From NCBI RefSeq assembly GCF_000183545.2, contig NZ_JH976535.1, forward strand, positions 1,045,890 to 1,109,889: 64,000 nt of DNA. The letters run 5' to 3'. Positions 28,168-50,572 of this stretch are shown piece by piece (positions within the stretch are counted from its first letter, which is position 1; every line of letters begins with the position of its first letter). A program made the translations under genes and the position numbers. The DNA is from Thermaerobacter subterraneus DSM 13965. GTDB lineage: Bacteria > Bacillota > Sulfobacillia > Thermaerobacterales > Thermaerobacteraceae. The notes below the pieces were generated by a model, which did no database searches, was not told the origin of the DNA, and saw nothing but the letters and a program-made list of their open reading frames with translations.

Positions 28168-28219
28168 CAAACGTGTTGCTTGTATTTTTATGCGTTTCCG
28201 GCAGGAAGGGTGGGAGAAC

Positions 28220-29104: not shown

Positions 29105-29197
29105 GCGGCCGCCCGGCGGGCCGCAGGTGGGCCGGCCCGCCTGCGCCACCACGATCAGCACACGACGCCGGGTGAGATGAGAGTCCGGAGCACGAGC

Positions 29198-29231
29198 CAC
29201 GCCGGCGCGCGGCAACCGCAGCGCCGGCGTG
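29198..29231 (+). terminator. Intercistronic hairpin after the binding-protein gene
   Basis: A perfect 11-bp stem (29198-29208 with 29221-29231) without a T run, 95 bases after the stop and 70 bases before the permease. It could attenuate or protect the transcript so that binding protein exceeds permease. Confidence 0.45.
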
Positions 29232-29301
29232 CGGTTTCCGGAGCCGCGTGCGGGGCCGGGCGGGCTCTCGACCCCGGGGGATGGGAGGACGGCGACGGAA
29301 G

Positions 29302-29979: not shown

Positions 29980-30754
29980 GGCGCCCATGATCGAATTCCG
30001 TGGCGTCAACAAGTGGTTCGGCGACCTGCACGTGCTCAAGGACATCAACCTGACCATCGGCCGCGGCGAGGTGGTGGTCGTCGCCGGTCCCAGCGGCAGC
30101 GGCAAGTCCACCCTCCTGCGCACCATCAACTACCTGGAGCCGGTGCAGGAAGGGGAGATCCTGGTCGACGGCGAGCCTATCGGGCGGCGCCGCCAGGGCA
30201 ACCGCTGGGTGGAAGACTCCCCGGCCGAGATCAACCGCAAGCGCCAGGAGATCGGCATGGTCTTCCAGCAGTTCAACCTGTTCCCCCACATGACGGCCCT
30301 GGAGAACGTGATGGAGGGGCTGGTGACGGTCCGGCGGATGCCGCGCCAGGAGGCGGAGCGGATCGCCCGCGAGATGCTGGCCCGGGTGGGCTTGGCGGAC
30401 CGCATGGACCACCGGCCATCCAAGCTGTCGGGCGGCCAGCAGCAGCGGGTGGCCATCGCCCGGGCCCTGGCCATGCGGCCCAAGGTCATCCTCTTCGACG
30501 AGCCCACCTCCGCCCTTGATCCCGAGCTGACGGGCGAGGTGCTGAACGTGATGCTCGACGTGGCCCGGCAGGGGTATACCATGGTGGTGGTCACCCACGA
30601 GATGGGCTTTGCCCGGGAGGTGGCCCACCGCATCGTGTTCATGGACGACGGGCGCGTGCTGCTGGACGTGCCGCCGGAGCAGTTCTTCCGCGATCCCGGC
30701 CACCCGCGGGCCCGGGATTTCCTGGGCCGGGTCCTCTGGCACGCCCAGGCTTGA
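29972..30754 (+). CDS. Amino-acid ABC transporter ATP-binding protein
   Basis: 260 aa. Walker [10 protein letters not shown] (39-47), Q-loop in [19 protein letters not shown], signature [15 protein letters not shown] (about 152), Walker [15 protein letters not shown] (about 172), and the switch His in [15 protein letters not shown]. This is the GlnQ/HisP group. It overlaps the permease gene and is followed after 56 bases by the dipeptidase. Confidence 0.95.
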
Positions 30755-30810
30755 TCCGCCCCCGACCGGTGCCGTGCCGGGCCATTGCCATTCAGGAAGG
30801 AGTGCCAGCC

Positions 30811-32445: not shown

Positions 32446-32909
32446 CGCCGGCCCCGGGGCCGGGTTCGTCCCGGTCCCGGGCCTTGTGTGTCCAGGTCGC
32501 GGGCGGGGTTCGTCCGGAGCGCGAGAGGGCCGCAAGGTCCGGCCGGGGAGCGGCGTGACCGGGAGCAACTGGAGCGAACCGGGTTCGTCCGGAGTGCGAG
32601 CAGGCCGCAAGGGGTTGGGGGGTTGAGGCTGTCAGAGCTGGCGACCGGTACCGGCAACTGGTGGCGCCCGCCTCGTTGGATTGCCGGCCGCCTGCGGCGG
32701 GTGGCGAGCGTGGCTGCGCCGGGTGGGCCGCCTCGGGCGGCTTACCCGGCGCTTTTGTTCACATTCGCTGATTTGGACAATGCACGACAATTCGCGCCAA
32801 CATTCGGCAGGAAGTTGACCCATCCCTTGGAATTCTTTCCTGAAGCGTCATATCCCACAGGGGAGTTTTCAGCGTTTTTCGGGGGAGTTCCTGGGGGTGG
32901 GGGAACCCG
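32446..32909. other. 464-base non-coding gap with an imperfect direct repeat
   Basis: No gene is supported here; open frames have no ribosome site or family likeness. Two imperfect copies of a 32-33-base unit, 32505-32537 and 32581-32612, share GGGTTCGTCCGGAG and GGCCGCAAGG. The last 150 bases are richer in A/T and probably hold the promoter of the WYL regulator, but no convincing -35/-10 pair was found. Confidence 0.6.
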
Positions 32910-33908
32910 ATGCCGATGAACCGTGCCCAGCTCCACCGGCTGGTGCGCATCGTCGACGAGCTGCGGGCGAAACGCTATCCCAATGCCCGTACCCTGGCGG
33001 AGAAACTGGAGGTGACCTCCCGGACCATCCACCGCGACCTGGACGTGCTTCGCGACGACTGGCACGCTCCACTGGAGTTCGACCGGCGCCGCAACGGCTA
33101 TTACCTGGCGGATCCGGGTTGGCAGCCGCCGGTGGGCGCGGGGCTGGCCCGGCTGGGCGCCGGTGAGGCTCTGGCACTGGTTTTGAGCCTGCAGGCCCTG
33201 GAGGCGGTACGGGCCCACGGGCTGGAAGACGCCTTCCGGGCGCTTTTGCAACGGCTGCCCGAATTGCTGCCGGACCAGGTGACGGTCGACCTGGCGTCCC
33301 TGGCCCACCGGGTGTCCTTCTTCTTCGAGCCGGCCCGCGGCGACCCGGAGGCCGTGGGCGAGCGGCTGGGAGCCCTGCGGGCCGCCATCGAGGCGTGCCG
33401 GGTGGTCCGGCTGCGGTATTACACCGCCTCCCGGGACCAGGAGACCACGCGCCTGGTCGAACCGTACCACCTGCGGTACTACGACGGTGCCTGGTACGTG
33501 GCGGGGTTCTGCCGCTGGCGCCAGGACGTGCGGACCTTTGCCGTCGACCGGATCCGGGAGATCCAGGTGCTGGCGGAAACCTTCCCTCCTCCGACCCCCG
33601 ACCGCTTTTCCCCCGACGTCTACTTCGGCGAGGCCTGGCGCCTGCAGAGGGGCGCCGAGCGGCAGAAGGTGGTGGTGCGGTTCCATCCGCCCCAGGCACG
33701 TTACGTCCGGGGCCGGACCTGGCATCCCAGCCAGGAGTCCCGGGAAGAGCAGGACGGATCGCTGGTGCTATCCTTCCGGGTGCTCGGAACGGAAGAAATC
33801 ATGCGCTGGCTCTTGCAGTTTGGGGCTGGGGTCGAGGTGCTGGAACCCGCCTCCCTGCGGGAGGCCATGGTTGCGGAAGTCGAGGCCATGGCGCGCCTCT
33901 ACCGGTGA
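32910..33908 (+). CDS. HTH and WYL-domain transcriptional regulator
   Basis: 332 aa. An N-terminal winged helix-turn-helix of the HTH_11/DeoR type (LVRIVDELRAKRYPNARTLAEKLEVTSRTIHRDLDVL, about 9-45) and a WYL domain with VVRLRYYTASRDQETTRLVEPYHLRYYDGAWYVAGFCRWRQDVRTFAVDRI (about 163-220), then a C-terminal WCX extension. WYL proteins sense ligands, often nucleotides or nucleic acids, and frequently sit beside CRISPR-cas and other defence loci. It is the gene immediately upstream of cas6, with iterated motifs in the gap between, so it is the best candidate for cas control. ATG 32910 follows a G-rich site; ATG 32916 is possible. Confidence 0.9.
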   Translation: MPMNRAQLHRLVRIVDELRAKRYPNARTLAEKLEVTSRTIHRDLDVLRDDWHAPLEFDRRRNGYYLADPGWQPPVGAGLARLGAGEALALVLSLQALEAVRAHGLEDAFRALLQRLPELLPDQVTVDLASLAHRVSFFFEPARGDPEAVGERLGALRAAIEACRVVRLRYYTASRDQETTRLVEPYHLRYYDGAWYVAGFCRWRQDVRTFAVDRIREIQVLAETFPPPTPDRFSPDVYFGEAWRLQRGAERQKVVVRFHPPQARYVRGRTWHPSQESREEQDGSLVLSFRVLGTEEIMRWLLQFGAGVEVLEPASLREAMVAEVEAMARLYR

Positions 33909-34285
33909 GGGCGGCCCGGAGCGGCGGGATGGTGGCGGGCTGGCGGAGGGTCCGGAAACGGGTCCCCTCCAGGGCGCGGGTGGGGATGACACGTTTTGTC
34001 AGCCCGGATCCCTTACGTTTGAGTACGAAAGCACACGCAAAGCACACGCACTGAAAGCCCTCGCGATGAAAGCACACGGAGGGACCCAGGGTGGAGAGAT
34101 GACCACCCTAACGGCCGGGTCCGAAAGGAGGTGGCGCAGCCGGCCCGTACGGAGCCCGGTTGGACCAAACGGGGCCGCCGGGCCGGCACCAAGGGTTGAG
34201 GCAGTCCACGGGCCCGTGGGGCCGCCGGGTGAGGGGAAGCCGAGCGATGTCCCCAGCGGGGGGGAGCAGGGGGGAGTCATCATCC
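33909..34285. promoter_or_regulatory. 377-base upstream region of the cas operon with AAAGCACACG iterons
   Basis: AAAGCACACG occurs exactly at 34028, 34039 and 34069, and a variant AAAGCCCTCG at 34054; the last three are spaced exactly 15 bases apart. The block lies about 210-260 bases before cas6 and may bind a regulator, plausibly the WYL protein. An AAAGGAGG sequence near 34123 is not followed by a convincing start codon. No strong promoter was recognised. Confidence 0.5.
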
Positions 34286-35464
34286 ATGCGGGTCATCATG
34301 GAGTTGCGACCGGTTTCGGGCCAGCTGGTTTTGCCGTTGCAGTACAACAGCCTGCTTCAGGGGCTGGTCTACCACCTTCTCGAAGGCACCGATGTGGCGG
34401 AGTTCCTCCATGACCAGGGGTTCACCCGCGGCGCTCGCCGGTACAAGATGTTCACCTTCTCCCGGCTGGAGGGGCTGTACACCATCGAGCGGTCGCCCGG
34501 AGGGCCCGTTGGGCGCGGGAGCCGGAGCGGGCTGGGCGCGGGCGGCAGCCCGGATGGCAACGGCCCGCTTGGCAAGGGAGAAGCGGGCGGCACCGCCGGC
34601 ACCAGCGACGCCGCTGGCATCCTCGGTTCGTCCGGAAACGCCGGCAGGTCCGGCACCGGCTCCAACGGCGTTACCATCCCTGTTGGCACCGGCGGCACCA
34701 TGGGCCCGCACAAGGCCGGCGGCCCCGATCACGGTATCGGCACCGGCCCCAGCAACGGTACCGGCCTTCGCAGCGGCACCGGCTCCAACGGTTCGACCGG
34801 CAACAAGATGATCCGGTTTGCGGGGAGCGTCCGCCTTACGGTGAGCTCGCCCTACGCCCCGGTGGTCCATGCCCTGGCCTCCCGGGCCCTGCAGCTGGGT
34901 ACGCTCCGGCTTGGCAGCCAGCTGGTGGAAATCAAGTCGGTTCGCTTTGAAGAGCTGCCTTCCATCACCCCGCCCGTCACCCTGCGGGCGCGGACGCCCA
35001 TCACCGTGTACAGCACCGTGAACCGGCCCGACGGCAGCCGCTTTACGTACTTCTTCGAGCCACGCAGCGGGGAGTTCGAGCGGCTGGTGGCCGAGAATGT
35101 GGTGCGCAAGTGGGAGGCCTTCACCGGGCGCACCTACGAGGGGCCGGGCATTCAGATCCGCTGGCGGGGCGCCGCCCGCGGCCATGTGGCCCGGTTCCGC
35201 CACGGAATCATCAAAGGTTTTACAGGCATCTTCGAGGCCACCGGCGATCCCGCTTTGATCGCCCTGGGGCTGGAGGCCGGTTTTGGTTCGAAGAACGCTC
35301 AGGGATTTGGGCTCTGCGACGTACTGCCCCCGCGCGGGTGGCCCTTGCCCCACCGGGACGGGGGCCCCGCCACCACGATCGTCCCTGGCGGCCGGCCCGC
35401 CGCCAACGGCGAAGCCACCGTCGAGGCAGCGGCGGCCGGGGAGGCGGAACAGGTTGTTGATTGA
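34286..35464 (+). CDS. cas6: Cas6 endoribonuclease with a Gly-rich insertion
   Basis: 392 aa from ATG 34286 behind GGGGGGAG. The first RAMP fold (MRVIMELRPVSGQLVLPLQYNSLLQGLVYHLL) and the closing Gly-rich loop GFGSKNAQGFGLCDV (about 331-345) define Cas6. A catalytic His is plausible in the first 45 residues (YHLL or FLHDQG). Between the two ferredoxin-like halves, residues about 71-173 are a low-complexity Gly/Ser/Thr/Asn insert with no equivalent in ordinary Cas6, which is near 230-260 aa. Type I-C systems usually lack cas6 because Cas5c cuts the crRNA, so this one may serve the second array, whose repeat is of Cas6 type. Its base composition in the insert is GC-rich. Confidence 0.88.
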   Translation: MRVIMELRPVSGQLVLPLQYNSLLQGLVYHLLEGTDVAEFLHDQGFTRGARRYKMFTFSRLEGLYTIERSPGGPVGRGSRSGLGAGGSPDGNGPLGKGEAGGTAGTSDAAGILGSSGNAGRSGTGSNGVTIPVGTGGTMGPHKAGGPDHGIGTGPSNGTGLRSGTGSNGSTGNKMIRFAGSVRLTVSSPYAPVVHALASRALQLGTLRLGSQLVEIKSVRFEELPSITPPVTLRARTPITVYSTVNRPDGSRFTYFFEPRSGEFERLVAENVVRKWEAFTGRTYEGPGIQIRWRGAARGHVARFRHGIIKGFTGIFEATGDPALIALGLEAGFGSKNAQGFGLCDVLPPRGWPLPHRDGGPATTIVPGGRPAANGEATVEAAAAGEAEQVVD

Positions 35465-35541
35465 ACAAGCCAGCCACGCCTCATCAAGGCCGAAGTAATT
35501 CGCTGAACCGAGCACCGGATGCCGGCTGAGGGTGACATTTC

Positions 35542-37725
35542 ATGGAGGAAAGCCTGGCGTTTTACGCCCATTCTCCTGGTGCGACGGGTCAATGGCATCA
35601 ACTTGTGGAACACCTGCGTTCTGTTTCCAAGATGGCTCGTGCGTTTGCCGACGCGTTCGGAATGGGGGATATCGCGTACCTCTTAGGACTGTTGCATGAC
35701 CTGGGCAAGTTCAACCCCGAGTTCCAGCACTACTTGCGAGCTACGCACGAGGGGAGGGCCACTTCTTCGGTGCCCCATGCTGTATGGGGAGCCGCTCTGC
35801 TTTATGGTCTAGCCCGTATCCGCGGCGGCACCGACGTTTGGAAGGAACTCGCTCTTCCCATTCTTGGTCATCACGCCGGTCTGGAGGACGCGGGCGTCGC
35901 GGCTACCAAGCTCGATGCTTTCTGGCAGGAGCGCGGACCAGAGGTGGTAGAGGCTCAGAAGCGCCTCGCCGCGGCTGGCCTGCGGTTGCCAGTGCCCCGC
36001 GTGCCGGCCTTCACGACCTCCACGCAACGGGAGTTCGCCATCCGGATGGTTTTCTCGGCTCTGGTGGACGCGGACTACCTGGACACCGAGAGGCACTTCG
36101 AACCCGAGCAGGCCAGCCTGCGCGGTCGCGGACCCTCGCTCGAGACCCTGTGGCACCGGCTCGAGGCCGCACAGCGTAAGATCCTTGACGATTCGACGGT
36201 GGTGAATCGGATCCGCCGGGAGGTGTACGAGGCCTGTGTGCGGGCGGCATCTGGTCCGCCGGGCGTATATCGCCTGACGGTGCCTACGGGTGGTGGCAAG
36301 ACGCGCAGTGGTCTTGCGTTTGCCCTCCGGCACGCGCTGATTCACGACCTGCGTCGAGTGGTCGTGGCCATCCCGTATACGAGCATCATCGATCAGACGG
36401 CCCGGGTGTACCGCGAGATTCTAGGCGACGAAGCGGTACTCGAGCACCACTCGGCCTTGCAGGTGCCGGAGGAGGACGAACGACAAGATGAATCGGTCGT
36501 GCGGCACCGGTTGGCGACAGAGAACTGGGACGCGCCCATCGTCGTCACCACTACCGTCCAGATGCTGGAGAGTCTTTTTTCCAACAGACCGTCCAAGGTA
36601 CGCAAGATTCACCGCTTAAGCGGAGCAGTCATCGTCCTTGACGAGGTGCAGGCGTTGCCCCCCGAGCTTTTGCGCCCCACCCTCGATGTGCTGGGATGGC
36701 TGGCGACGCCGGTCGAGGAGGGGGGCTTCGGTTCGACGGTGGTGCTGAGCACCGCCACCCAACCCGCGCTGGAGGCAGTCTGCGGTTCCGAGCACCCGCA
36801 CCTGGCCCGGGCTATTGAGATCGTCCCCGACTTCCCAAAGCATTTTGCGTTGCTGAAGCGGGTGGAGTACGAGTGGCGTCCTGACGCCATAACGTGGGAT
36901 ACACTCGCCGGTGAGGTCGAGCAGCTGCATCAGGTTCTGGTGGTGCTCAACAGCCGACGGGACGCCTTCGCCCTGCTGTCCGCATTGGAAGACGTCCCGG
37001 ACGTGTTTCACCTGTCGACTCTGCTTTGCGGGGCGCATCGGAAGAGGGTTCTTGAAGAGGTCAAGCGGCGGCTCCGGCAAGGCGAGCCCGTCAGGCTGGT
37101 CAGCACGCAGGTCGTGGAGGCGGGTGTGGATCTCGATTTCCCCGTAGTGTATCGAGCCGTCGGACCGCTCGACCGGATCGTGCAGGCCGCGGGGCGGTGT
37201 AATCGCGAGGGCCGCCTGCCTTCGGGACCGGGCCGGGTGATCGTGTTCGAGCCCGCAGGAGGCAGGACTCCTTCGGGACCTTACAAAGTAGGCCTCGAGA
37301 AAGCCCGGTTGCTGCTCCGCCATCACCCTGTAAGCCATCTACACGATCCCGATCTATATCGCGAGTACTTCCGGCGCCTGTTCGCGGATGTCGACCTCGA
37401 CAAGAAGCGGATCCAGGAGTATCGCCAAGCGCTGAACTACCCGGAGGTCGCGCAGCGCTACCGTTTGATCGAGAGCGATACCGTGCCCGTCGTCGTCCCT
37501 TACATGGATGCCGCAGCGCAGCTCGAGGAGTTCTTGGCGCGGCCCGGTTACGTCGCTTGGCGTCGTCTGCAACCATATATCGTTAACCTGTTTGCGTATG
37601 AGGTGGCGACCAGGGGCGAGTGGCTCGAGAGGGTCGCCGATAGCCTGTACCTCTGGAAGGGCGCCTACGATGAACGTCTCGGCATGGTGGAGGGCTACGC
37701 CGATCCTGCGGACCTGATCGTGTAG
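35542..37725 (+). CDS. cas3: Cas3 HD nuclease-helicase (type I-C)
   Basis: 727 aa. The HD nuclease comes first: His24 in QLVEHLRSV and His52-Asp53 in LLGLLHDLGKFNPEF, then HH motifs in ILGHHAGLEDAG. The SF2 helicase has Walker A TVPTGGGKTRSGL (about 248), DEVQALPPE (about 366) in place of DEAH, STATQPAL, and motif VI in RIVQAAGRCNREG. Cas3 is recruited by target-bound Cascade and degrades the displaced strand. ATG 35542 lies after GAGGGTGA. The gene and those following are visibly less GC-rich than the flanks, in line with transfer as a cassette. Confidence 0.96.
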   Translation: MEESLAFYAHSPGATGQWHQLVEHLRSVSKMARAFADAFGMGDIAYLLGLLHDLGKFNPEFQHYLRATHEGRATSSVPHAVWGAALLYGLARIRGGTDVWKELALPILGHHAGLEDAGVAATKLDAFWQERGPEVVEAQKRLAAAGLRLPVPRVPAFTTSTQREFAIRMVFSALVDADYLDTERHFEPEQASLRGRGPSLETLWHRLEAAQRKILDDSTVVNRIRREVYEACVRAASGPPGVYRLTVPTGGGKTRSGLAFALRHALIHDLRRVVVAIPYTSIIDQTARVYREILGDEAVLEHHSALQVPEEDERQDESVVRHRLATENWDAPIVVTTTVQMLESLFSNRPSKVRKIHRLSGAVIVLDEVQALPPELLRPTLDVLGWLATPVEEGGFGSTVVLSTATQPALEAVCGSEHPHLARAIEIVPDFPKHFALLKRVEYEWRPDAITWDTLAGEVEQLHQVLVVLNSRRDAFALLSALEDVPDVFHLSTLLCGAHRKRVLEEVKRRLRQGEPVRLVSTQVVEAGVDLDFPVVYRAVGPLDRIVQAAGRCNREGRLPSGPGRVIVFEPAGGRTPSGPYKVGLEKARLLLRHHPVSHLHDPDLYREYFRRLFADVDLDKKRIQEYRQALNYPEVAQRYRLIESDTVPVVVPYMDAAAQLEEFLARPGYVAWRRLQPYIVNLFAYEVATRGEWLERVADSLYLWKGAYDERLGMVEGYADPADLIV

Positions 37726-37738
37726 GAGGGGATGCCGG

Positions 37739-38434
37739 TTGGGTTTCACCAGCAGCACGGTAAGGGTACGCGTGTGGGGCGAGTACGCCTGCTTCACGCG
37801 GCCCGAGTTCAAGGTCGAGCGCGTGAGTTACCCCGTCATGACCCCTAGTGCCGCGCGGGGTCTGCTCGAGGCGATCTTTTGGAAGCCGGAATTCAGGTAC
37901 GAGATTCGGCGCATCGGCGTGGTGAAACCTGGCAAACAAATGGTGATCTTGCGCAACGAGCTCGGGGAACGTCAGGGACGCAAGCCCTATTATGTTGAAG
38001 ATCATCGCCAGCAACGTTCCACGTTGCTGCTGAAGGACGTGGATTACATCATCGAGGCGGAGATGAAGTTGCGACCCCATGCTTCAGATCCGGTGATCAA
38101 GTACGTGGAGCAGTTCCAAAGGCGGGTCGAACGGGGACAGTACCACCACACGCCTTACCTAGGAACCCGCGAGTTCGCGGCGCACTTTGCCCCCGTCAAT
38201 GGCGAAGCACCGGCGCCGTTCAACCTGACCATCGGGACGATGCTGTTCGATATCGCCTTTGTCGAAGACCCGAACCGTGCCGAGCTTGAATTCAAGCGGC
38301 CCGGCAGGGCGGAACCGGTCAAGGGGTACGCTATGGCGCTGTTTTTCGAGGCGGAGGTGAAGCACGGGTGGCTTGCCATCCCTCGTGAGAGGTATCTCGA
38401 ACTCTACCGGTTGGAGGAGGGTCAGCGTGTTTGA
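37739..38434 (+). CDS. cas5c: Cas5c (Cas5d) crRNA-processing subunit
   Basis: 231 aa from a TTG at 37739, seven bases after GGAGGGG; the ATG at 37732 is out of frame. Type I-C features: VRVWGEYACFTRPEFKVERVSYPVMTPSAARGLLEAIFW and KPYYVEDHRQQRSTLLLKDVDYIIEAE, the latter holding the Tyr/Lys/His residues thought to cut the repeat. In type I-C this protein replaces Cas6: it cleaves at the 3' base of the repeat hairpin and remains on the 5' handle. It overlaps cas8c by eight bases. Confidence 0.95.
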   Translation: MGFTSSTVRVRVWGEYACFTRPEFKVERVSYPVMTPSAARGLLEAIFWKPEFRYEIRRIGVVKPGKQMVILRNELGERQGRKPYYVEDHRQQRSTLLLKDVDYIIEAEMKLRPHASDPVIKYVEQFQRRVERGQYHHTPYLGTREFAAHFAPVNGEAPAPFNLTIGTMLFDIAFVEDPNRAELEFKRPGRAEPVKGYAMALFFEAEVKHGWLAIPRERYLELYRLEEGQRV

Positions 38435-40262
38435 GGAGCTTGTTGTGTTGGGGCGGCATCTGGAGGAAGATGGCGTCCTCCTGCCGCCGGGGTTTCATGG
38501 AGACTACACCCAGCCGATCAAATGGATTGTCCATCTCTGGCCGGACCGCGTGTATCTGGAAGCGGCCGAAATATACGTACCACGGCCGTACGACGCGGGC
38601 CGTACGAGAGGAATCCGGGCGTACTTGCTGACAGACGAGGCGGCGTATGCGTTGGCTGTGAGTAAAGAGAAGGACGGCGGTGACGACAAGCGCGCCCGGG
38701 AAAAACATGCCGCCTTCCGCAAGTTGGTGGACGCGTTCCGCGCCTGGGACGGCCTGCAGGACCCGGCGTTGCGGGAAGTTTTGGAATGGCTATGCCGGGC
38801 GTTGGATGATGGCCTCGTTCACCAGGATCCGCGTTACCCACAGATCCTAGCAAAGGACTGGGTTTCGTTCGTACCCGAGGAGGGTCCGTTAAGAGGGCGT
38901 CACCTGTTTGAACATCCCGACGCCAAAGCCTTTTGGCTCGTGGAGCTCGAGCGGCGCACCGATGTGGGAGGGGCGAGCAAAAAGTTCCGCCTATCCGGTC
39001 AGTGCGCGGTCTGCGGTGACGTACGGCCTCTAGTGAAGCGGATCCCTCTGGGAGTCAAGCTGCCCGGGCTAAGGCCGATACCCCTGCACTCGCTCAACAG
39101 GGACGCCTTTACTTCGTTCTACGGCGGTGGCGGTACATCCAAGCGGTCGCACTTGAGCGTGTGCCTCCGATGTGGCGATACCGCCGCGCGCGCTTTCAAC
39201 CATCTCAGCACTTCGGACCAGCATCACCGGGAGCTGGTACGTGACGGCCAGAAACGCGAAGGTTTGGGCAACCAGATAGCCGTTTTCTGGTTGAAGGCGC
39301 CAGCACCGGTGCCGGTGCAGGTAGGCGACCGGGTAGTGGATGTAGCTGATCTGACAGAGGTCGACTGGGGTTCCATACTGATGGAGACCCACGCCTCGGA
39401 GTCGGCGCCGGAGCCGATGCCATCCCAGCTACTGGAATTGCTCAGAGTGCCGTGGAAGCCCTCAGACGCTGCGCTCCGGCTCGATGACTATGCGTTTTAC
39501 CTCGCTGTTGTGTCGCCTAACGTGGCGCGCGTCGCTCTCCGCGAATGGATCCAGGTTTCGCTGGAGGAGTTCAAGGAACACCTGCGCCGCTATCTGGAGG
39601 CTGTTCGCATTGTCTCACCCTTCGGTGATCCACCATGGCCCCTGGCCATCGGCAGCCTGATCGACGGGTTGGGGACGCAGAACCCGCAAATGGTACGCGG
39701 TCTGCTGCGCACCGCTTTCACCGGCACCCGGCCTCCCGCGGGCCTGTTGGTTCGAGGCGTTGCGGTCCTGCGCAATCCTCGCGTCCTGCAGGACCTGCGG
39801 GAGACCACACGCCTGCACGCGGTGGCGAGCGTCCTTAAACTCAGCCTGTGGTATGGAAAGGAGGGCGTAGAACGGATGAGCGCACTTGATACCACCTTGA
39901 ACAGCCCGGCCTACTTGTGCGGGCGGCTCCTGGCCATCCTTGAGGAGGCTCAGCTCCGGGCTGCCAATTTCAACTTGAACCGTACGCTGGTGGGCCGGTT
40001 CTACGGGGCGGCCTCGACGGCCCCGGCGGCAACATTCGGTGGATTACTTAGGCTGGCGACCACCGCCCATCTGCCGAAGACCGATCAGGAGTTAAACCGG
40101 CTTGTGGAAGAGGTGGCGGCCAGCCTCGACAAGGCGGGGGGTTTCCCCCGGACGCTGAGCCTAGTCGAACAGGCGGAGTTCGGTCTGGGGTTCTACCACC
40201 AGCGCGCCGCATTTCGGGACCAGCGCCGCAAAATCAAGGATGAAGGAGGCAGGGAGTGGTGA
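38427..40262 (+). CDS. cas8c: Cas8c (Csd1) large subunit of type I-C Cascade
   Basis: 611 aa from GTG 38427, seven bases after GGAGGAGG and overlapping the cas5c stop. The N-terminus (ELVVLGRHLEEDGVLLPPGF) and the central Csd1 features (CAVCGD, LSVCLRCGDTAARAFNHL, and LYNLGLYHQRA-like FGLGFYHQRAAF near the end) are typical of the family. It recognises the PAM and stabilises the R-loop. Two CxxC pairs (CAVCG and CLRCG) may bind zinc. The stop overlaps the cas7 start at TGATG. Confidence 0.95.
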   Translation: MFEELVVLGRHLEEDGVLLPPGFHGDYTQPIKWIVHLWPDRVYLEAAEIYVPRPYDAGRTRGIRAYLLTDEAAYALAVSKEKDGGDDKRAREKHAAFRKLVDAFRAWDGLQDPALREVLEWLCRALDDGLVHQDPRYPQILAKDWVSFVPEEGPLRGRHLFEHPDAKAFWLVELERRTDVGGASKKFRLSGQCAVCGDVRPLVKRIPLGVKLPGLRPIPLHSLNRDAFTSFYGGGGTSKRSHLSVCLRCGDTAARAFNHLSTSDQHHRELVRDGQKREGLGNQIAVFWLKAPAPVPVQVGDRVVDVADLTEVDWGSILMETHASESAPEPMPSQLLELLRVPWKPSDAALRLDDYAFYLAVVSPNVARVALREWIQVSLEEFKEHLRRYLEAVRIVSPFGDPPWPLAIGSLIDGLGTQNPQMVRGLLRTAFTGTRPPAGLLVRGVAVLRNPRVLQDLRETTRLHAVASVLKLSLWYGKEGVERMSALDTTLNSPAYLCGRLLAILEEAQLRAANFNLNRTLVGRFYGAASTAPAATFGGLLRLATTAHLPKTDQELNRLVEEVAASLDKAGGFPRTLSLVEQAEFGLGFYHQRAAFRDQRRKIKDEGGREW

Positions 40263-41362
40263 TGGTATACACGGACCCTGCGAGGCGGCACGAGTTTGTA
40301 CTTCTGTTCGACGTCAGGGATGGCAACCCCAATGGTGACCCCGATGCGGGCAACATGCCCCGGATCGACCCTGAAACCATGTATGGGCTGGTGACCGATG
40401 TCGCTCTCAAGCGCAAGGTGCGGGATTACGTGTCCGGGGTCCTGAACATTCCTATCTTCATCCAGAGCCGCACAACTCTCAACACCCTTATTCGGGAAGC
40501 GTTCGAGAGCGTGGGTTACGTCCCGCCTGGGATAGACCTCGACCCTGAAGAACTGGATGATCAGGACCTAGTGGAGTGGCTCCAAGAGAAAGGAGATGTG
40601 GGCTTCTCTGTGGACGGAAAACGCCTCCTTTACTCGGGGGAGTCAAGGAACCGGCGGGACATCCAGCGGGAACTGACCGACGGCCTGCCGGAAGAGCACC
40701 AGCAGCTCCGCCAAAAACTGACCAGGATCGCCCGCCGGCTAGGTGACGTGCTCAACAAGGGTGCTGGCCAGGTCAGTGCCAGAGAAAAGCAGGAGGACGC
40801 GCGCAAGGAACTATGCCGCAAGTATTACGACATCCGCATATTCGGTGCAGTCCTCTCGACGGGACTCAACGCCGGGCAGGTTCGGGGACCAGTACAATTT
40901 ACCTTCGCCCGTACTGTGGATCCTATTCAACCCCTGGACCTCACGATCACACGGCAGGCCCGCACAAACACCGTGCGCATGGGCAAGAAGGGCAATGCTG
41001 AGATGGGCAGAAAGCCGGTGGTGCCGTATGGCCTCTACCGCGCGCACGGCTACTTTAACCCGTACCTCGCCAAGGAAACGGGGGTCACCACCCAGGACCT
41101 CGAGACGTTGTGGGACGCGCTGCAGAACCTGTTCGAGTTCGACCGCTCGGCGGCCCGTGGGGAGATGCATGTCCGCGGCCTGATCGTCTTCACCCATGAC
41201 AACCCCAAGGGAAATGCTCCGGCACACAAGCTATTTGACCTTGTGACGGTCAGGCGGCGTGACGGGGTGTCGGTGCCCCGAGGGTACCACGATTATGCGG
41301 TGGTCATCCACCGCGACGATCTGCCCCCGGGGGTCACCCTGAGCGTGTTGGTGGAGCCGTAG
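40262..41362 (+). CDS. cas7: Cas7 (Csd2) backbone subunit of type I-C Cascade
   Basis: 366 aa from ATG 40262, overlapping cas8c by one base (GTG codons at 40256 and 40259 are alternatives closer to AAGGAGG). The RAMP signature FVLLFDVRDGNPNGDPDAGNMPR (in part) is diagnostic of Csd2/Csh2 proteins, and VTDVALKRKVRDYV and GPVQFTFARTVDPIQPL follow. It polymerises along the crRNA spacer. The repeated NPNGDP is the RNA-binding loop. Confidence 0.96.
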   Translation: MVYTDPARRHEFVLLFDVRDGNPNGDPDAGNMPRIDPETMYGLVTDVALKRKVRDYVSGVLNIPIFIQSRTTLNTLIREAFESVGYVPPGIDLDPEELDDQDLVEWLQEKGDVGFSVDGKRLLYSGESRNRRDIQRELTDGLPEEHQQLRQKLTRIARRLGDVLNKGAGQVSAREKQEDARKELCRKYYDIRIFGAVLSTGLNAGQVRGPVQFTFARTVDPIQPLDLTITRQARTNTVRMGKKGNAEMGRKPVVPYGLYRAHGYFNPYLAKETGVTTQDLETLWDALQNLFEFDRSAARGEMHVRGLIVFTHDNPKGNAPAHKLFDLVTVRRRDGVSVPRGYHDYAVVIHRDDLPPGVTLSVLVEP

Positions 41363-41444
41363 GCATTCCCAGGCTGGGGGCGCAACCTCGGATCACCGGA
41401 GTGGCGCCCCCAGCCTCTTCCGCCCAGTGAGAGGGGAGAAGCGG

Positions 41445-42065
41445 GTGCATTCAGGAACCGTCTCGGATGACGAGCCAGTGCCTATCAGCGCCCTACAGCA
41501 CTACGTGTACTGCCCCCGGCAGTGTGCCCTGATCCACGTCGAGCGCGCCTGGGGGGAGAATGTCTTCACACTGCGTGGTCGGCGTGTGCACGAGCGTGCC
41601 GATACACCCGGGACGATGGTTCGCGAGGGAGTGCGGGTGGAGCGGGCCTTGCCGATCTGGTCGGAGAGGCTTGGCCTGATCGGGCAGGCTGACGTGGTCG
41701 AGTTTCTCCCCGACGGTACGCCGTTTCCGGTTGAATACAAATCGGGTCCCCGATTGGCTCGCCGGGCCGACGAGGTGCAACTTTGCGCTCAAGCCATCTG
41801 CTTGGAGGCGATGTTTGGACGACCCGTACCCCGTGGCGCCCTCTACTACCATGGCGGCAGGAGACGAAGGGAAATTGCGTTCACCCCTTCCCTGCGGGAG
41901 GAGGTCGAGCGGGTGACTCAGGAGGTTCGCCGACTGTTGCAGCAGCAGCAACTGCCGGCACCGGTGGCAGACCGCCGCTGCTGCCACTGCTCACTCTTGG
42001 ATACGTGCCTTCCATTTGCTATACGTCGCTGTATCGCCGGGGATTCTGGGAGCGAGTCCACGTGA
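41445..42065 (+). CDS. cas4: Cas4 nuclease
   Basis: 206 aa from GTG 41445, six bases after AGGGGAG. The four Fe-S cysteines are Cys23 in YVYCPRQCALIH plus the C-terminal cluster RRCCHCSLLDTCLP. The RecB-type core has GQADVVEFLPDGTPFPVEYKSG (Asp, Glu and Lys of the nuclease) and QLCAQAICLEAMFG. Cas4 trims prespacers so that PAM-matched DNA is inserted in the right direction. The stop overlaps the cas1 start (GTGA). Confidence 0.95.
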   Translation: MHSGTVSDDEPVPISALQHYVYCPRQCALIHVERAWGENVFTLRGRRVHERADTPGTMVREGVRVERALPIWSERLGLIGQADVVEFLPDGTPFPVEYKSGPRLARRADEVQLCAQAICLEAMFGRPVPRGALYYHGGRRRREIAFTPSLREEVERVTQEVRRLLQQQQLPAPVADRRCCHCSLLDTCLPFAIRRCIAGDSGSEST

Positions 42066-43081
42066 CCCACGTGATCCTCAACACGCTCTACGTCCAAACC
42101 CAAGGTGCCTACATCCACCTTTATCAGGATACGGTCCGGGTAGAGGTCGAAGAAGAGGTCAGGCTGCAGGTGCCCTTGCACCATCTTGGGGGCGTGGTGG
42201 TGTTTGGCAATGTCTTGGTGAGTCCTTATCTCATTCAAAGATTTGCGGAAGATGGCCGGTTTATCGTGTGGTTTTCGGCATCGGGACGCTTCGTCGGTCG
42301 CCTTCACGGCCCAACGTCGGGCAACGTGCTATTGCGCCGCGCGCAGCACGAGGTGTTGAGTGATCGTGCTCGTACCTTGCATCTTGCTCGGTATATCGTT
42401 TCAGGAAAACTCAGGAATTCACGTCAGGTCCTGCTTCGGGGGCTGCGTGACCTTCCGGGCTCTGTACCAGCGATCGAGGAGGCGGCGGACAATCTGCAAG
42501 TCCTTGTTAACGAAGTCCAACAGGCATCGTCACTGGACGGGGTGCGCGGTATCGAGGGGCGTGGCGCGAATCTCTACTTCACCGCACTCGGACACCTGAT
42601 TCGCGGCGAGTTCGTCTGGACGGGGCGCACCCGGCGTCCACCCCGGGATCCGATCAATGCGTTGCTCTCCTTTGCCTACGCGTTGCTCGTCAGCGACTGC
42701 GTCGCGGCCTGCGAGGGTGCGGGATTGGATCCCCAGGTTGGCTATCTGCATGCCCTCCGGCCGGGTCGTCCGTCGCTCGCACTTGATCTTGCGGAAGAGT
42801 TCCGAAGTGTGCTCGCCGACCGCCTGGTTGTTTCTCTGATCAACCGTCGCCAGGTTCAGCCGGGGGACTTCGACGTTCGGCCGGGTGGTGCTGTCGTCCT
42901 CAAGGATGACGCCAGGCGAGTATTCTTGGATGCGTATCAGCGGCGCAAACAGGAGGAAGTCACCCATCCACTTCTAGAACAGCGCATACCCATCGGGCTC
43001 GTCCCCTATGTCCAGGCACGCTTGCTGGCGCGGTTCCTGCGCGGCGACACCCCGAAGTACGTTCCGTACAGCATTCGGTAA
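42062..43081 (+). CDS. cas1: Cas1 integrase
   Basis: 339 aa from GTG 42062. The N-terminal beta domain includes LGGVVVFGNVLVSPYLIQRFAEDGRFIVWFSASGRFVGRL. Catalytic Glu in GVRGIEGRGANLYF, His in GYLHALRPGRPSLALDLAEEFRSVLAD, followed by the catalytic Asp in the same motif. It integrates spacers at the leader end with Cas2. Type I-C/I-B group by length. Confidence 0.97.
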   Translation: MTHVILNTLYVQTQGAYIHLYQDTVRVEVEEEVRLQVPLHHLGGVVVFGNVLVSPYLIQRFAEDGRFIVWFSASGRFVGRLHGPTSGNVLLRRAQHEVLSDRARTLHLARYIVSGKLRNSRQVLLRGLRDLPGSVPAIEEAADNLQVLVNEVQQASSLDGVRGIEGRGANLYFTALGHLIRGEFVWTGRTRRPPRDPINALLSFAYALLVSDCVAACEGAGLDPQVGYLHALRPGRPSLALDLAEEFRSVLADRLVVSLINRRQVQPGDFDVRPGGAVVLKDDARRVFLDAYQRRKQEEVTHPLLEQRIPIGLVPYVQARLLARFLRGDTPKYVPYSIR

Positions 43082-43104
43082 GAACCCGAGAGGTGAAGGA
43101 TGCC

Positions 43105-43395
43105 GTGGACATACTGGTCCCATATGACGTGAACACGGAAACGAAAGAGGGACAACGGCGGTTGCGACGTGTGGCCCGCGTTTGTACCGGCTTTGGGCAA
43201 AGGGTGCAGAAATCCCTCTTTGAATGTCGCGTAACACAGGCCCAGTTGGAAGAACTCGAGGCAAGGCTGGTGAAGATCATCGACGGGAAGAAGGACAGCC
43301 TGCGCATTTACATTCTACCGGGGGGTCGGAACCGCCTTGTAAGGGTTCATGGAATCGACCGCTACATCGATTTCGAGGATCCGCTCATTGTATAA
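43105..43395 (+). CDS. cas2: Cas2
   Basis: 96 aa from GTG 43105, just after GAAGGA (an in-frame GTG at 43093 is less likely). Ferredoxin-like fold: ILVPYDVNTETKEGQRRLRRVARVCTGFGQRVQKSLFECRV, with the Asp of YDVNT and the closing RVHGIDRYIDFEDPLIV used in dimer contact. It is the structural partner of Cas1. It is the last gene before the leader. Confidence 0.96.
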   Translation: MDILVPYDVNTETKEGQRRLRRVARVCTGFGQRVQKSLFECRVTQAQLEELEARLVKIIDGKKDSLRIYILPGGRNRLVRVHGIDRYIDFEDPLIV

Positions 43396-43627: not shown

Positions 43628-46021
43628 ATCACACCCGGCCGAAAGGCCGGGTGAGGATTGAAACTCACCTGGCTCCGCCAGTTCTACGCTGAGCATCGGT
43701 CACACCCGGCCGAAAGGCCGGGTGAGGATTGAAACCCCGGGGCCAGGACGAGCTCGGCAAGGCCACAAAGGTCACACCCGGCCGAAAGGCCGGGTGAGGA
43801 TTGAAACATTTGAGGCCCAACCTCCGGCGCAGCTCATCGGCCGTCACACCCGGCCGAAAGGCCGGGTGAGGATTGAAACGTGGACCCCGTGGCCCGCGAG
43901 CGGAGCGCGAGCGGCGTCACACCCGGCCGAAAGGCCGGGTGAGGATTGAAACGAGGCGAACAGGCTGCAGCACGCCTCGATGCGCTCGGTCACACCCGGC
44001 CGAAAGGCCGGGTGAGGATTGAAACGCCGGCGGCCGTGGCGAACGCCTGCAGCGCTCGCAGGTCACACCCGGCCGAAAGGCCGGGTGAGGATTGAAACCA
44101 GATCGAGGACCAGCAATGGACGGCGCCGGAGCGTCACACCCGGCCGAAAGGCCGGGTGAGGATTGAAACCCCTGCGCACAAGCGACTTCGCGCGTAAGGC
44201 TGCCGTCACACCCGGCCGAAAGGCCGGGTGAGGATTGAAACCCTCGGTGGAGTTGGTTCCTGGACCGAGCTTGGCGTGTCACACCCGGCCGAAAGGCCGG
44301 GTGAGGATTGAAACACGGCGACACCCCCTACAGTTCCACGCCGTTGGCTAGGTCACACCCGGCCGAAAGGCCGGGTGAGGATTGAAACCCCCCGCGCCGT
44401 GGGGCGAACGGCTCTACGCGGGCAGGTCACACCCGGCCGAAAGGCCGGGTGAGGATTGAAACCGCTACGAGCTGCTGGATTCGGCGAACCGCCACAGTCA
44501 CACCCGGCCGAAAGGCCGGGTGAGGATTGAAACAACGCCTGGCTGCATGACGTGATTGCGAGGGTGCTGGTCACACCCGGCCGAAAGGCCGGGTGAGGAT
44601 TGAAACGCACGGTACCTGGCAAGGGCCGTGCTTGAGGCGAGGGTCACACCCGGCCGAAAGGCCGGGTGAGGATTGAAACTTCACGCGGCCCTTCAGGCGG
44701 CGGTCGACCAGGGGCGTCACACCCGGCCGAAAGGCCGGGTGAGGATTGAAACCAGACCCGCTCGACGGCCGCCGGGGTCTCTTCGTCGTCACACCCGGCC
44801 GAAAGGCCGGGTGAGGATTGAAACCGCCTGGCGCCGGAGGCTGGCCGCAAGAGCGGCGGGTCACACCCGGCCGAAAGGCCGGGTGAGGATTGAAACGACA
44901 CGCTCGCCAGCTTGCCGTCGGGGGCGTAGTTGAGTCACACCCGGCCGAAAGGCCGGGTGAGGATTGAAACGGGGCCAGCATCTTCTCCTCGGCATAGTCG
45001 CCGTGTCACACCCGGCCGAAAGGCCGGGTGAGGATTGAAACGGGGCCAGCATCTTCTCCTCGGCATAGTCGCCGTGTCACACCCGGCCGAAAGGCCGGGT
45101 GAGGATTGAAACAACATCGCACTGCTGGCGTCGACGACGCGGTTTGTGGTCACACCCGGCCGAAAGGCCGGGTGAGGATTGAAACTGATCCCGCTCAACC
45201 CACACGGGCCCGCTCTGCAGTCACACCCGGCCGAAAGGCCGGGTGAGGATTGAAACAAGCCCCTCAGCATCGATTGGACGCCCCTGAACCGTCACACCCG
45301 GCCGAAAGGCCGGGTGAGGATTGAAACAAGCCCCTCAGCATCGATTGGACGCCCCTGAACCGTCACACCCGGCCGAAAGGCCGGGTGAGGATTGAAACGG
45401 CGAGGCGTACAACGCCCTGCTGAATCACCTGCACCGTCACACCCGGCCGAAAGGCCGGGTGAGGATTGAAACGCAAGCCACCGTTTCCGTCGTAAACAAA
45501 GGCGACATACGTCACACCCGGCCGAAAGGCCGGGTGAGGATTGAAACACGGTACGAGCGCGGGGAGATCCCCGTGCCGGATGTCACACCCGGCCGAAAGG
45601 CCGGGTGAGGATTGAAACGCGTTGGCACCGGCGTACCTCCGGCCACCTTGCGGTCACACCCGGCCGAAAGGCCGGGTGAGGATTGAAACCCCGTAGCCCT
45701 CCCGCTCCCCGGACTCGGGGATGGTGTCACACCCGGCCGAAAGGCCGGGTGAGGATTGAAACAGGAGCACGACGCGCCCCATCACACGACCCTCCCGGTC
45801 ACACCCGGCCGAAAGGCCGGGTGAGGATTGAAACCGGTTGCTCAAGCCGAACCGGCGCATCAAGGCGTGGTCACACCCGGCCGAAAGGCCGGGTGAGGAT
45901 TGAAACATCGCCCGCTGGCAGCGCCAAGCTCGCCTGCTCGCCGTCACACCCGGCCGAAAGGCCGGGTGAGGATTGAAACCCTATGCCGGCGCCCGCTCTC
46001 GCATGGCGCCGATCGTCACAC
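43628..46021 (+). CRISPR. CRISPR array 1, 33 repeats plus a broken one (type I-C)
   Basis: A 37-base repeat starts GTCACACCCGGCC and ends GTGAGGATTGAAAC, with spacers of 33-37 bases. Inside is a perfect 9-bp stem (CACCCGGCC/GGCCGGGTG) closed by a GAAA loop; 11 bases (AGGATTGAAAC) follow the stem, exactly the 5' handle left by Cas5c. Thirty-three full copies run from 43628 to 45979, then a spacer and only GTCACAC of another repeat at 46015-46021, where an IS3-type element begins. The first repeat has A instead of G at base 1. Two spacers occur twice in tandem (44971 and 45042; 45257 and 45328). The leader is at the left, so older spacers were lost or cut off at the right. Confidence 0.98.
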
Positions 46022-46345
46022 ACCTGGACTTGCCCCGGTTTAGTGGACACCCCGATACTTGGGGCGTAAGCCCCGGAAAGGGTGATCCCCATGCCGGCTA
46101 CCAAGCCGCCGTATCCTCCCCAGTTCCGGGCCGAAGCCGTCCGCCTCGTCCGGGAAAGCGGGAAGAAGCTCCAGCAGGTTGCTGCCGATCTCGGCGTTTC
46201 GGAAGCCAGCTTGCGGAAGTGGGTCCGCCAAGCCGAGATCGATGCGGGGCAGCGCCCCGGGTTGACCACAGCCGAGCGGGAGGAGCTGAACCGGCTGCGG
46301 CGGGAGAACCGGATCCTGCGGGAGGAGCGTGAAATCCTAAAAAAA

Positions 46346-46534
46346 GTCCTCCATGCCGCCTACGGCGGCACCACGAAGGACGAAAATGGCGTCCAGCCAA
46401 AGTTGTATGTGCCACCGGTTGCATGAGATCGAGCTTGCTTGGTGCCGGCAAGCCCGCAAAAAAGTCTGATCCTGGCGATCGCGCGGCACCACGAACTGTT
46501 GCCCTCCGCACGGGGGAGCACGCGAGGGAGAATC
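46346..46534 (+). ncRNA. Candidate bridge RNA region of the IS110 element
   Basis: In IS110-type elements the non-coding end upstream of the transposase encodes a structured bridge RNA that pairs with target and donor DNA. This 189-base stretch precedes the transposase, has no supported gene, and contains hairpins such as GCCGCC-TAC-GGCGGC at 46355-46369. The assignment rests on family knowledge; loops pairing with the IS3 target were not worked out. Confidence 0.4.
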
Positions 46535-47815
46535 TTGACCGAGGCGATCGCCACGCCGGTGAGTTCCCTGGGACGGGGGGCGGTGGCGGTGGACGTGGTG
46601 CACGAGCGGTGCGCGGGGCTGGACGTGCATAAGCAGACGGTGACCGGTTGTGTGATCACCCCGGAGGTCCGTGAGACGCGGACCTTCGGCACGATGACGG
46701 CGCCGTTGTTGGAGTTGGTCGCTTGGCTGCAACACCACGGCGTGACGCACGTGGCCATGGAGAGCACGGGGGTGTACTGGAAGCCGGTCTACAACCTGCT
46801 CGAGGGCTCCGGGATCGAGGTCCTGGTGGTCAATGCGCAACACATCAAGCAGGTACCGGGTCGCAAGACGGATGTCAAGGATGCCGCGTGGATCGCGGAG
46901 TTGCTCCGGCATGGGCTGCTGCGGGGCAGCTTCATCCCGGATCGCAACCAGCGGGAGCTGCGGGAACTGGTGCGCTACCGCCGGAGCTTGATCCAGGAGC
47001 AAGCCCGGGAAGCGAACCGGATCCAAAAGGTGCTGGAAGGTGCCAACATCAAACTCGGGGATGTGACCAGCGTGGTCCTGGGTGTCTCCGGCCGGCAGAT
47101 GTTAAAGGCCATCATTGCCGGAGAGACGGATCCGGAGAAGCTGGCGGATTTGGCCCGGGGTCGTTTGCGGAGCAAGCGGGAGAGCTTGGTCCAAGCGCTG
47201 ACGGGTTTGATCGGCCCGCACCAACGGCGGTTGCTGGCTGCACAGCTGGCCAACGTCGAGTTCCTGGATGAGCAGATTGCCGCTTTGGATCGCGAGATCG
47301 CTGAGCGCATGCGCCCTTATGAAGCCATCCTGGAGCGGATGGACGAGCTGGATGGCCTGGCCCGGCGCACAAGCGAGGAGATCCTGGCGGAGATCGGCGT
47401 CGACATGAGCCGCTTCCCGACGCATCGTCACCTGGCCTCGTGGGCCAAGATCTGTCCGGGCAACAACCAGAGTGCCGGAAAGCGCCGGAGTGGGAACACG
47501 GGGCAAGGGAACGCCTATCTACGGGCGGCCCTGGTCCGCGCGGCTCAGGCTGCGGCGCGGACACGCGACACCTACTTGGCGGCCCAATTCCGCCGCCTCG
47601 CTGCGCGGCGGGGCAAGAACCGTGCCAAAGTGGCCGTCGCCCATAGCATCTTGGTGATCATCTACCACATGATCAAGCACGGCACACGCTATAACGATCT
47701 TGGGGCGGCGCATTTCGAACGGCTCAACGAGCAGGCCACCGTCCGGCGGACCGTGGCACGTCTTGAGGCGCTGGGTTACAAGGTCACACTTGAGAAGCCC
47801 ATGTCCGCCGCCTAA
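46535..47815 (+). CDS. IS110-family transposase (recombinase)
   Basis: 426 aa from TTG 46535 near AGGGAG (GTG 46439 is a longer option). N-terminal DEDD/RuvC-like domain: [34 protein letters not shown] and [19 protein letters not shown] supply the acidic residues. The C-terminal Tnp_2/transposase_20 domain has [17 protein letters not shown] and [21 protein letters not shown] with the Ser thought to be the nucleophile. The frame is intact, so the element may be active. Confidence 0.93.
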
Positions 47816-47876
47816 GCCCACGCCGCATTTTCGAGGGAGCCGCGGCCTTTTTTGCCCAGGAGAGCCGACGGAACCG

Positions 47877-48779
47877 GTGACGGTGTTTCGGTTCATCGAG
47901 CAGGAGAAGGCCCACCACCCGGTCGCCACGCTGTGCCGTGTCCTGGGCGTCTCGACCAGCGGCTACTACGCATGGCGGCAACGTGGTGCCTCCAGACGGT
48001 CCCAGGAGGACGCGGATTTGAGTCAGCAGATCCGAGCCATTCATGCCGCCAGCCGGGGCACCTACGGGGCTCCGCGCGTTCACGCCGAACTGCGGATGGT
48101 TCATGGCGTCCGTTGCGGGCGGAAGCGCATCGCCCGGCTGATGCGGGCCATGGGGCTGGCTGGCGTGCACCGGCGCCGAGCCCGGGGGATCACACGCCGG
48201 GATCCCCGGCGCCCGGTCGACCCCGATCGGCTGCATCGCCAATTTGTGCCCGATGCCCCCAACCGGGTGTGGGTGGCGGACCTCACGCAGCACCGCACCG
48301 AAGAGGGATGGTTATACCTCGCCACAGTGGTGGACGGCTTCTCCCGCGCCGTGGTGGGCTGGGCCATGGGCGACCGGCCCGTGGCGGAACTGGTGGTCGA
48401 CGCCGTCACCATGGCGGTGCGGCGTCGCCGGCCGGGGCCCGGCCTGATCCACCACTCCGACCACGGAGCACAGTACACCTCGCTGGCGTTCACCCGTCGC
48501 TTGGAGGCCCTCGGCATCGCCGGATCGATGGGTTCGGTGGGCGATGCACTGGACAACGCCGTGGCGGAGAGTTTCTACGCGACGCTGCAGACAGAACTCC
48601 TCGACCGGCAAACCTGGGCGAGCCGGGATCAGCTGCGCATGGCGATCTTCGAGTACGTCGAAGGGTTCTATAACCGGCGGCGCCGTCACTCGGCACTTGG
48701 CTACCTCTCGCCCGACGAATACGAGGAGCGTTGGAAGCAGGAGCGAAAGGTTCAGCCCCAGGAAGGGATTGTGGCATAA
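47877..48779 (+). CDS. IS3 orfB, DDE transposase
   Basis: 300 aa from GTG 47877, overlapping the orfA stop (GTGA). The N-terminal HTH_21 region (FIEQEKAHHPVATLCRVLGVSTSGYYAW) precedes the integrase core with the catalytic triad: Asp in RVWVADLTQ, Asp in HHSDHGAQYTSLAF and Glu in DNAVAESFYATLQTELL (the D-D-35-E pattern). It is intact, but orfA is split, so a normal OrfAB fusion by frameshifting cannot be made from this copy. Confidence 0.94.
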   Translation: MTVFRFIEQEKAHHPVATLCRVLGVSTSGYYAWRQRGASRRSQEDADLSQQIRAIHAASRGTYGAPRVHAELRMVHGVRCGRKRIARLMRAMGLAGVHRRRARGITRRDPRRPVDPDRLHRQFVPDAPNRVWVADLTQHRTEEGWLYLATVVDGFSRAVVGWAMGDRPVAELVVDAVTMAVRRRRPGPGLIHHSDHGAQYTSLAFTRRLEALGIAGSMGSVGDALDNAVAESFYATLQTELLDRQTWASRDQLRMAIFEYVEGFYNRRRRHSALGYLSPDEYEERWKQERKVQPQEGIVA

Positions 48780-48820
48780 GCCTCAACCCGTCCACGAAAC
48801 CGGGTCAACTCCGATGCCGG

Positions 48821-49349: not shown

Positions 49350-50572
49350 GTGAAACAGGCTCATAGGTACCCTACAAACTGTGACAGCCTACCACGCGAC
49401 ATGGGGGACACACCGGTTTCGATCCCTCATAGGTACCCTACAAACCGCAGGTGCGGGACACGAGCCGCGTTCGGAGGTTCTTGTTTCGATCCCTCATAGG
49501 TACCCTACAAACGCCGCGCTCGGCGGCCCGGATCCGGAGCCGCCGGAAGTTTCGATCCCTCATAGGTACCCTACAAACTCCTGCGTCCTGGTGTTGGTGC
49601 CGATTCCGGTCCTGCGTTTCGATCCCTCATAGGTACCCTACAAACCTGCTCACTCAGTGAAGCCATCTGAGTCACCCGTGGTTTCGATCCCTCATAGGTA
49701 CCCTACAAACCTGGGTCTACATCGACGGTAACGGGCTCGTGGTGTAGTTTCGATCCCTCATAGGTACCCTATAAACACGTGGGCAAAAAGCGGCCGGTGA
49801 ATTCGGTCCCAGTTTCGATCCCTCATAGGTACCCTACAAACGGCCTCGAACACCAACGGATTTCGGCTCGTGGACATGTTTCGATCCCTCATAGGTACCC
49901 TACAAACACTTGCATAAGCTGGTCAATGCGCTGAATCTTCTGAGTTTCGATCCCTCATAGGTACCCTACAAACTCCTGAGTGCCATGGCACCGGATTCGT
50001 GGCGGAATGCCGTTTCGATCCCTCATAGGTACCCTACAAACTGTTGCTCTTCGTGATCGTCTTTTCCGCCCCGACTTGTTTCGATCCCTCATAGGTACCC
50101 TACAAACCCCACTCCACCACGCCCGGCTGCCAGCGGGTGCCGGAGTTTCGATCCCTCATAGGTACCCTACAAACCAAGAATGCGATTGCGATTGAGTGCG
50201 ATAGGGAATTGTTTCGATCCCTCATAGATACCCTACAAACCTGCGCGCGCCTGGGGGTGCGGTACGAGGTGGACGCACGTTTCGATCCCTCATAGGTACC
50301 CTACAAACGAGCCCGCGCAAACTCGTCGCGGCTCGCCATCTCGCCGTTTCGATCCCTCATAGGTACCCTACAAACGTCGACGGTCTCCCTCGGCATTGAG
50401 TGCGAAGTGTCGTTTCGATCCCTCATAGGTACCCTACAAACGCGACATGGCAGTTAGCTCTATCCTCCTCTCTTGCGTTTCGATCCCTCATAGGTACCCT
50501 ACAAACCGGAAGTAGCTGCGGCGGTTGCTACGAAGGAAGTGAGTTTCGATCCCTCATAGGTACCCTACAAAC
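49350..50572 (-). CRISPR. CRISPR array 2, 19 repeats (Cas6-type repeat)
   Basis: A 30-base repeat, on the plus strand beginning GTTTCGATCCCTCATAGG and ending TACCCTACAAAC, with 35-39-base spacers. Read on the minus strand it ends ATCGAAAC, the usual 3' end, so transcription should run right to left with the leader at 50573 onward. The leftmost copy (49350-49379) has a degenerate first ten bases, as expected for the oldest end. Two other copies carry single changes (TATAAAC near 49770; ATAGATACC near 50225). The repeat has no strong hairpin and resembles type I-B/III repeats processed by Cas6; it is unrelated to array 1. No effector genes for it are in the window. Confidence 0.97.

Follow-up and report, generated by a model that had tools for sequence, protein, structure and literature searches.

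The CRISPR-Cas locus described here lies in a 64,000-nucleotide stretch of DNA (hereafter the window; G000:C1:1045890-1109889) from the assembly (2.89 Mb, 99.96% complete) of a thermophilic Thermaerobacter. On the + strand, a WYL-domain regulator is followed by cas6, the genes cas3-cas5c-cas8c-cas7c-cas4-cas1-cas2 (35542-43395), array 1, insertion sequences (46025-49243) and array 2 (Table 1). Type I-C systems normally lack Cas6, and in B. halodurans their crRNAs are processed by Cas5c (PMC3890593). The locus carries the full I-C gene set (cas8c, cas5c, cas7c, cas3, cas4, cas1 and cas2) in canonical order, together with a hairpin repeat ending in GGATTGAAAC, but it differs from known I-C systems, in which the operon normally has no cas6 and Cas5c does the processing, in the cas6 at the head of the operon and in the second, I-B-type array that follows. 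The first-pass annotation had described a cas6 heading a type I-C operon; that the cas6 is intact and the I-C operon complete is borne out by TIGR01877 for the first gene and by curated I-C models for those downstream. The site was compared among four Thermaerobacter genomes, namely the window's own (G000), T. marianensis (G001), G002 and G003. In each of them the CRISPR locus is flanked on the left by the WYL regulator, which shows 76–97% amino acid identity in G001, G002 and G003. Elsewhere in the window, two domain matches at 4195-4486 mark a group II intron.

Table 1. Features of the CRISPR-Cas locus, in window positions.
Feature	Positions	Strand	Basis or remark
WYL/WCX-domain regulator	32910..33908	+	Pfam WYL, WCX, HTH_11
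cas6, 392 aa (ATG 34286 to stop 35464)	34286..35464	+	TIGR01877, PF01881, synteny with G002 cas6, Foldseek
Gly/Ser-rich low-complexity insert of Cas6, residues ~70-173	34493..34804	+	alignments, pLDDT, substitutions
Low-complexity C-terminal tail of Cas6, residues 352-392	35339..35461	+	pLDDT <50, neutral-like substitutions
Candidate fossil of cas8b start, TTG TTG ATT GAA, overlapping cas6 stop	35454..35465	+	alignment to G002 overlap
cas3 (HD-helicase)	35542..37725	+	TIGR01587, TIGR01596; 87.6% aa identity to G003
cas5c, I-C crRNA-processing subunit	37739..38434	+	TIGR01876, 128 bits
cas8c (csd1), GTG start inferred	38421..40262	+	TIGR01863, 254.8 bits
cas7c (csd2)	40256..41362	+	TIGR02589, 318.5 bits, two stretches
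cas4	41427..42065	+	TIGR00372; 94.8% aa identity to G003
cas1, I-C type, GTG start inferred	42062..43081	+	TIGR03640, 475.8 bits; 95.6% aa identity to G003
cas2	43093..43395	+	TIGR01573; 97% aa identity to G003
Array 1, 33 type I-C repeats of 37 nt	43628..45979	+	repeat detection, folding
IS3-type element interrupted by IS110-type element, between arrays	46025..48810	+	Pfam rve, HTH_21, HTH_Tnp_1, DEDD_Tnp_IS110
Truncated 30-nt repeat, trailer (left) end of array 2	49360..49379	-	sequence read
Array 2, 18 repeats of 30 nt, crRNA sense GTTTGTAGGGTACCTATGAGGGATCGAAAC	49416..50572	-	leader at right end

The cas6 product scores 86.1 bits against TIGR01877 (cut-off 58.65) and 96.8 bits against Pfam Cas6_C (PF01881), and its glycine-rich C-terminal motif, GFGSKNAQGFG, is conserved in the alignments. 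The core of its AlphaFold2 model mostly exceeds pLDDT 90, and the best Foldseek matches are the Cas6 structures 5yi6, 3qjj, 3i4h and 3pkm (TM-score by target 0.82–0.88). H42 in the N-terminal domain, present in at least 90% of the aligned Cas6 proteins, is a candidate catalytic histidine. With G001 as outgroup, substitutions in cas6 were assigned to branches; nonsynonymous and synonymous changes in the core number 4:15 on the G000 branch and 7:15 on the G002 branch, and judged from these counts the core is under purifying selection. Such constraint could mean a job kept after the replacement discussed below, the counts pooling changes from before and after that event. Only 77 nt separate cas6 from the I-C cas3, and the gap contains no terminator-like site.

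The two arrays of the window are of different kinds. The array 1 repeat forms a strong hairpin (−22.3 kcal/mol, z −6.0). That of array 2, 30 nt long and alternating with spacers of 35–38 nt, folds weakly (−4.6 kcal/mol, z −0.5). Repeats of this 30-nt type are typical of I-B and III systems. The same genome holds an orphan array of 119 repeats (G000:C1:387736-398020; L016/L017), the repeat of which, GTTTCGATTCCTCATAGGCACCCTACAAAC, is nearly that of array 2; no cas genes lie near it, it is broken by an IS21-like insertion, and its flanks are common to G002 at 86–97%. Each of the two 30-nt arrays is long, and its repeats vary little. No spacer is common to any of the compared arrays, which points to array turnover in both lineages before the adaptation genes were lost. 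Some smaller features accompany the I-C module and the insertion sequences. Within array 1, repeat-spacer units are tandemly duplicated at two places (44934-45075 and 45220-45361); Cas7c has about 70 extra residues between its matched stretches (40543-40751), and this region aligns poorly to that of G003; and a DDE transposase fragment (48995-49243) follows the IS3/IS110 pair.

At the same site, G001 and G002 have the same WYL gene and the same cas6, and both genomes contain 30-nt arrays of the array 2 kind. Their Cas6 also carries the low-complexity insert seen here, but in these relatives cas6 is followed by cas8b-cas7-cas5-cas3, which are missing in the window, with I-C in their place. The operon encodes a protein of about 700 residues (699) in the Cas8 position, which no Pfam or NCBIfam model matched, a Csh2-like Cas7 (161.6 and 169.5 bits, just under the cut-off of 171.55), a Cas5b (60.7 bits, under the cut-off of 97) and a Cas3; we call it I-B-like, since the label rests on these sub-cut-off Cas7 and Cas5b matches. 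The window is collinear with G002 from 28046 to 35320, at the end of cas6, and again from 50554, the right edge of array 2, to 64000, both at 87–96% nucleotide identity, and the right flank of array 2 is the leader-side flank of the corresponding G002 array. Between these blocks, G002 has I-B-like cas8b-cas7-cas5 and a truncated cas3 where the window has I-C.

The I-B-like operon of G001 has a long cas3. The cas3 of G002 (L042:7387-8256) ends after about 290–300 of 1038 residues, at the same IS3-type element that lies between the arrays of the window, and interference in G002 has therefore probably been lost, with cas6 and the effector genes still open there; a weak cas1 match (18.8 bits) was also recorded in that genome. 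In G002, moreover, an insertion element with a TCATA target duplication sits inside the leader-proximal 30-nt repeat (L042:941-1248). The resulting composite repeat of 31 nt (an IS end plus 19 nt of the old repeat), with an altered crRNA handle, is now present in five copies, so at least four later acquisitions have copied it.

In the fourth genome, G003, the WYL gene is directly followed by the I-C genes cas3-cas5c-cas8c-cas7c-cas4-cas1-cas2 and an I-C array of 87 repeats, and neither cas6 nor 30-nt repeats were found there. Thus, cas6 and 30-nt arrays are both present in three of the four genus members and both absent in the other, which supports the first-pass link between cas6 and array 2. 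The window is thus a hybrid, its flanks, cas6 and array 2 being of the G002 type and its I-C module of the G003 type. Fourfold-site differences between the window and G003 are 0.44–0.48 in the flanking WYL and peptidase genes, 0.09–0.13 in cas4, cas1 and cas2, 0.25 in cas3, and 0.43 in cas5c and cas8c, and identity along the I-C module is a mosaic of 94–98% and 75–80% stretches. The low divergence of cas4, cas1 and cas2 against that of the flanks, together with this mosaic, indicates that the I-C module has been exchanged horizontally, probably more than once.

These observations suggest that a type I-C system replaced an I-B-like system in situ, leaving Cas6 and the 30-nt arrays as relics whose products are most likely unused; we assign this reading a probability of about 0.82. 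In the ancestral state, the WYL regulator would have been followed by an I-B-like cas6-cas8b-cas7-cas5-cas3, with 30-nt arrays adjacent to it and at one further site. The effector genes that lay between cas6 and the adjacent array would then have been swapped for a whole I-C module with its own array, of the kind seen in G003. The left crossover most likely occurred by homologous recombination through the common flank, and the right one may have involved mobile elements or the array region, the elements between the arrays being candidates for the place of the crossover or for its scar. In G002, cas6 and cas8b overlap in GTG CTG ATT GAG, and the 12 nt aligned with this overlap at the end of the window's cas6 are suggestive of a remnant of the cas8b start; the left replacement junction is placed just after them. 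Taken from four genomes, the direction would be I-C over I-B-like; conversely, the I-C arrangement of G003 could be the older one at this locus. A comparable situation is that of orphan CRISPR arrays alongside a surviving cas6, in that the 18- and 119-repeat arrays have neither cognate effector nor adaptation genes. What differs here is that comparison with sister species reveals why the arrays were orphaned, namely by an in-situ swap.

The disordered insert of about 100 residues noted at first pass is real (~104 residues, 37 of the 104 being Gly), but its placement between the two RAMP halves has to be corrected, as the AlphaFold2 model puts residues 77–171 between two strands of the first RAMP domain. 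Predicted confidence falls below pLDDT 50 over residues 77–171 and 352–392. The insert is absent from all 12 aligned Cas6 proteins from outside the genus, and its length varies among those of G001 and G002. Nonsynonymous and synonymous changes number 7:2 (G000 branch) and 11:1 (G002 branch) in the insert and 13:2 and 19:3, respectively, in the tail, counts in which no amino acid constraint is visible in either region. By these comparisons, the insert is a genus-specific flexible loop that evolves as if unconstrained and is older than the swap. It is scarcely credible that Cas6 was recruited as a dedicated extra I-C subunit with the Gly/Ser insert as its adaptation: the gene order and the 77-nt spacing to cas3 do look operonic, but synteny contradicts recruitment, the I-C relative G003 has no cas6, and the insert is ruled out as an I-C adaptation by its occurrence in relatives whose cas6 heads an I-B-like operon.

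The 30-nt repeat type would also fit a Cas6 that works for some overlooked type III or I-B effector encoded at another site, and a search for such an effector, or for a second cas6 beside one, had been proposed with the first-pass annotation. The search was run with family models, for each of which controls in well-known genomes gave matches, and G000 yielded neither such an effector nor a second cas6. Its cas6 is the only one in the genome; there is no Cas7 (PF05107) other than that of I-C, no DevR (PF01905), no cas1 beyond the single I-C-type copy, no relative of the G001 Cas8b, and hence none of the cas8b/cas7b/cas5b set that G001 and G002 carry at the locus. Similarly, PF03787 (RAMP), which would indicate a type III Csm/Cmr system, was absent from all four genus members. 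Given the completeness of the assembly and the positive controls, a cryptic type III or I-B owner of cas6 is ruled out as far as these models reach, and we regard it as very unlikely.

For the present locus, Cas5c would cut array 1 and load the I-C Cascade, as established for its family. By family analogy, transcripts from array 2 and from the distant 119-repeat array would still be cleaved by Cas6, 8 nt before the repeat ends, so that Cas6-type crRNAs of array 2 would start with AUCGAAAC; Cas6 is probably still able to cut the 30-nt repeat and leave this predicted 8-nt 5′ handle. In Haloferax I-B, however, a cas-deletion strain supplied with cas6 by itself made no mature crRNA, whereas cas5, cas6 and cas7 together gave 97% of the wild-type level (PMC3945376). 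Because the Haloferax Cas6 needs Cas5 and Cas7, and the window's Cas6 has lost its own Cas5, Cas7 and Cas8, the array 2 crRNAs are most likely unstable and unused.

The first-pass annotation had suggested two processing routes in one locus. In a working arrangement of this kind, Cas6 would process both 30-nt arrays and its products would be accepted by the I-C Cascade (Cas5c-Cas7c-Cas8c), a single effector then drawing on two nucleases and two families of repeats. The last 8 nt of the repeats, which are the expected handles, differ by one base between array 2 (ATCGAAAC) and array 1 (ATTGAAAC), and it is through this near-identity that the approximately 130 old spacers might be loaded into I-C Cascade. 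The constrained Cas6 core, the short gap to cas3 and the length and uniformity of both 30-nt arrays are in keeping with such use, as is the finding that I-C Cas8c/Cas7/Cas5d restored silencing in E. coli mutants lacking single I-E Cascade genes, including cas6e (reviewed in PMC3890593). Against this, what the I-C processing subunit recognizes is a strong hairpin, and the 30-nt repeat has no such structure; I-C runs without cas6 in G003, and cas6 is therefore dispensable to I-C; and no other cas6-headed operon was met among 40 I-C loci sampled across the phylum. On balance, a two-route locus is unlikely, and it is similarly doubtful that the old I-B spacers still guide the new I-C effector through Cas6-made crRNAs. 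If they did, memory would here have persisted naturally through a switch of CRISPR subtype, and the locus lends itself to testing, in a natural setting, whether immune memory outlasts its effector. Under replacement, cas6 and array 2 are left from the I-B-like operon without a cognate effector, and cas6, as a relic of the swap, is not a new processing pathway.

In the open-licence literature, no account of such an arrangement in Thermaerobacter came to light. We judge the locus to be a real but explained hybrid of known systems, made by locus replacement and captured as an intermediate. The four genomes form a series at one site, from an I-B-like operon with a long cas3, through one with an IS-truncated cas3 and an I-C hybrid with cas6 and 30-nt arrays, to I-C only. 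The series shows how one CRISPR subtype can displace another in place and which parts linger. Annotation pipelines could mistake such a locus for a new I-C variant that uses Cas6. In the phylum sample, cas6 occurred within ~3 kb of I-C in other arrangements at two of the 40 loci. At one of them (L103:1275-3976), it belongs to a separate cas3-cas4-cas1-cas2-cas6 set adjacent to I-C; at the other (L092:14990-15754), a solitary cas6 lies near I-C with an opposite-strand gene between. These two are possibly tandem or relic states like those proposed for the window.
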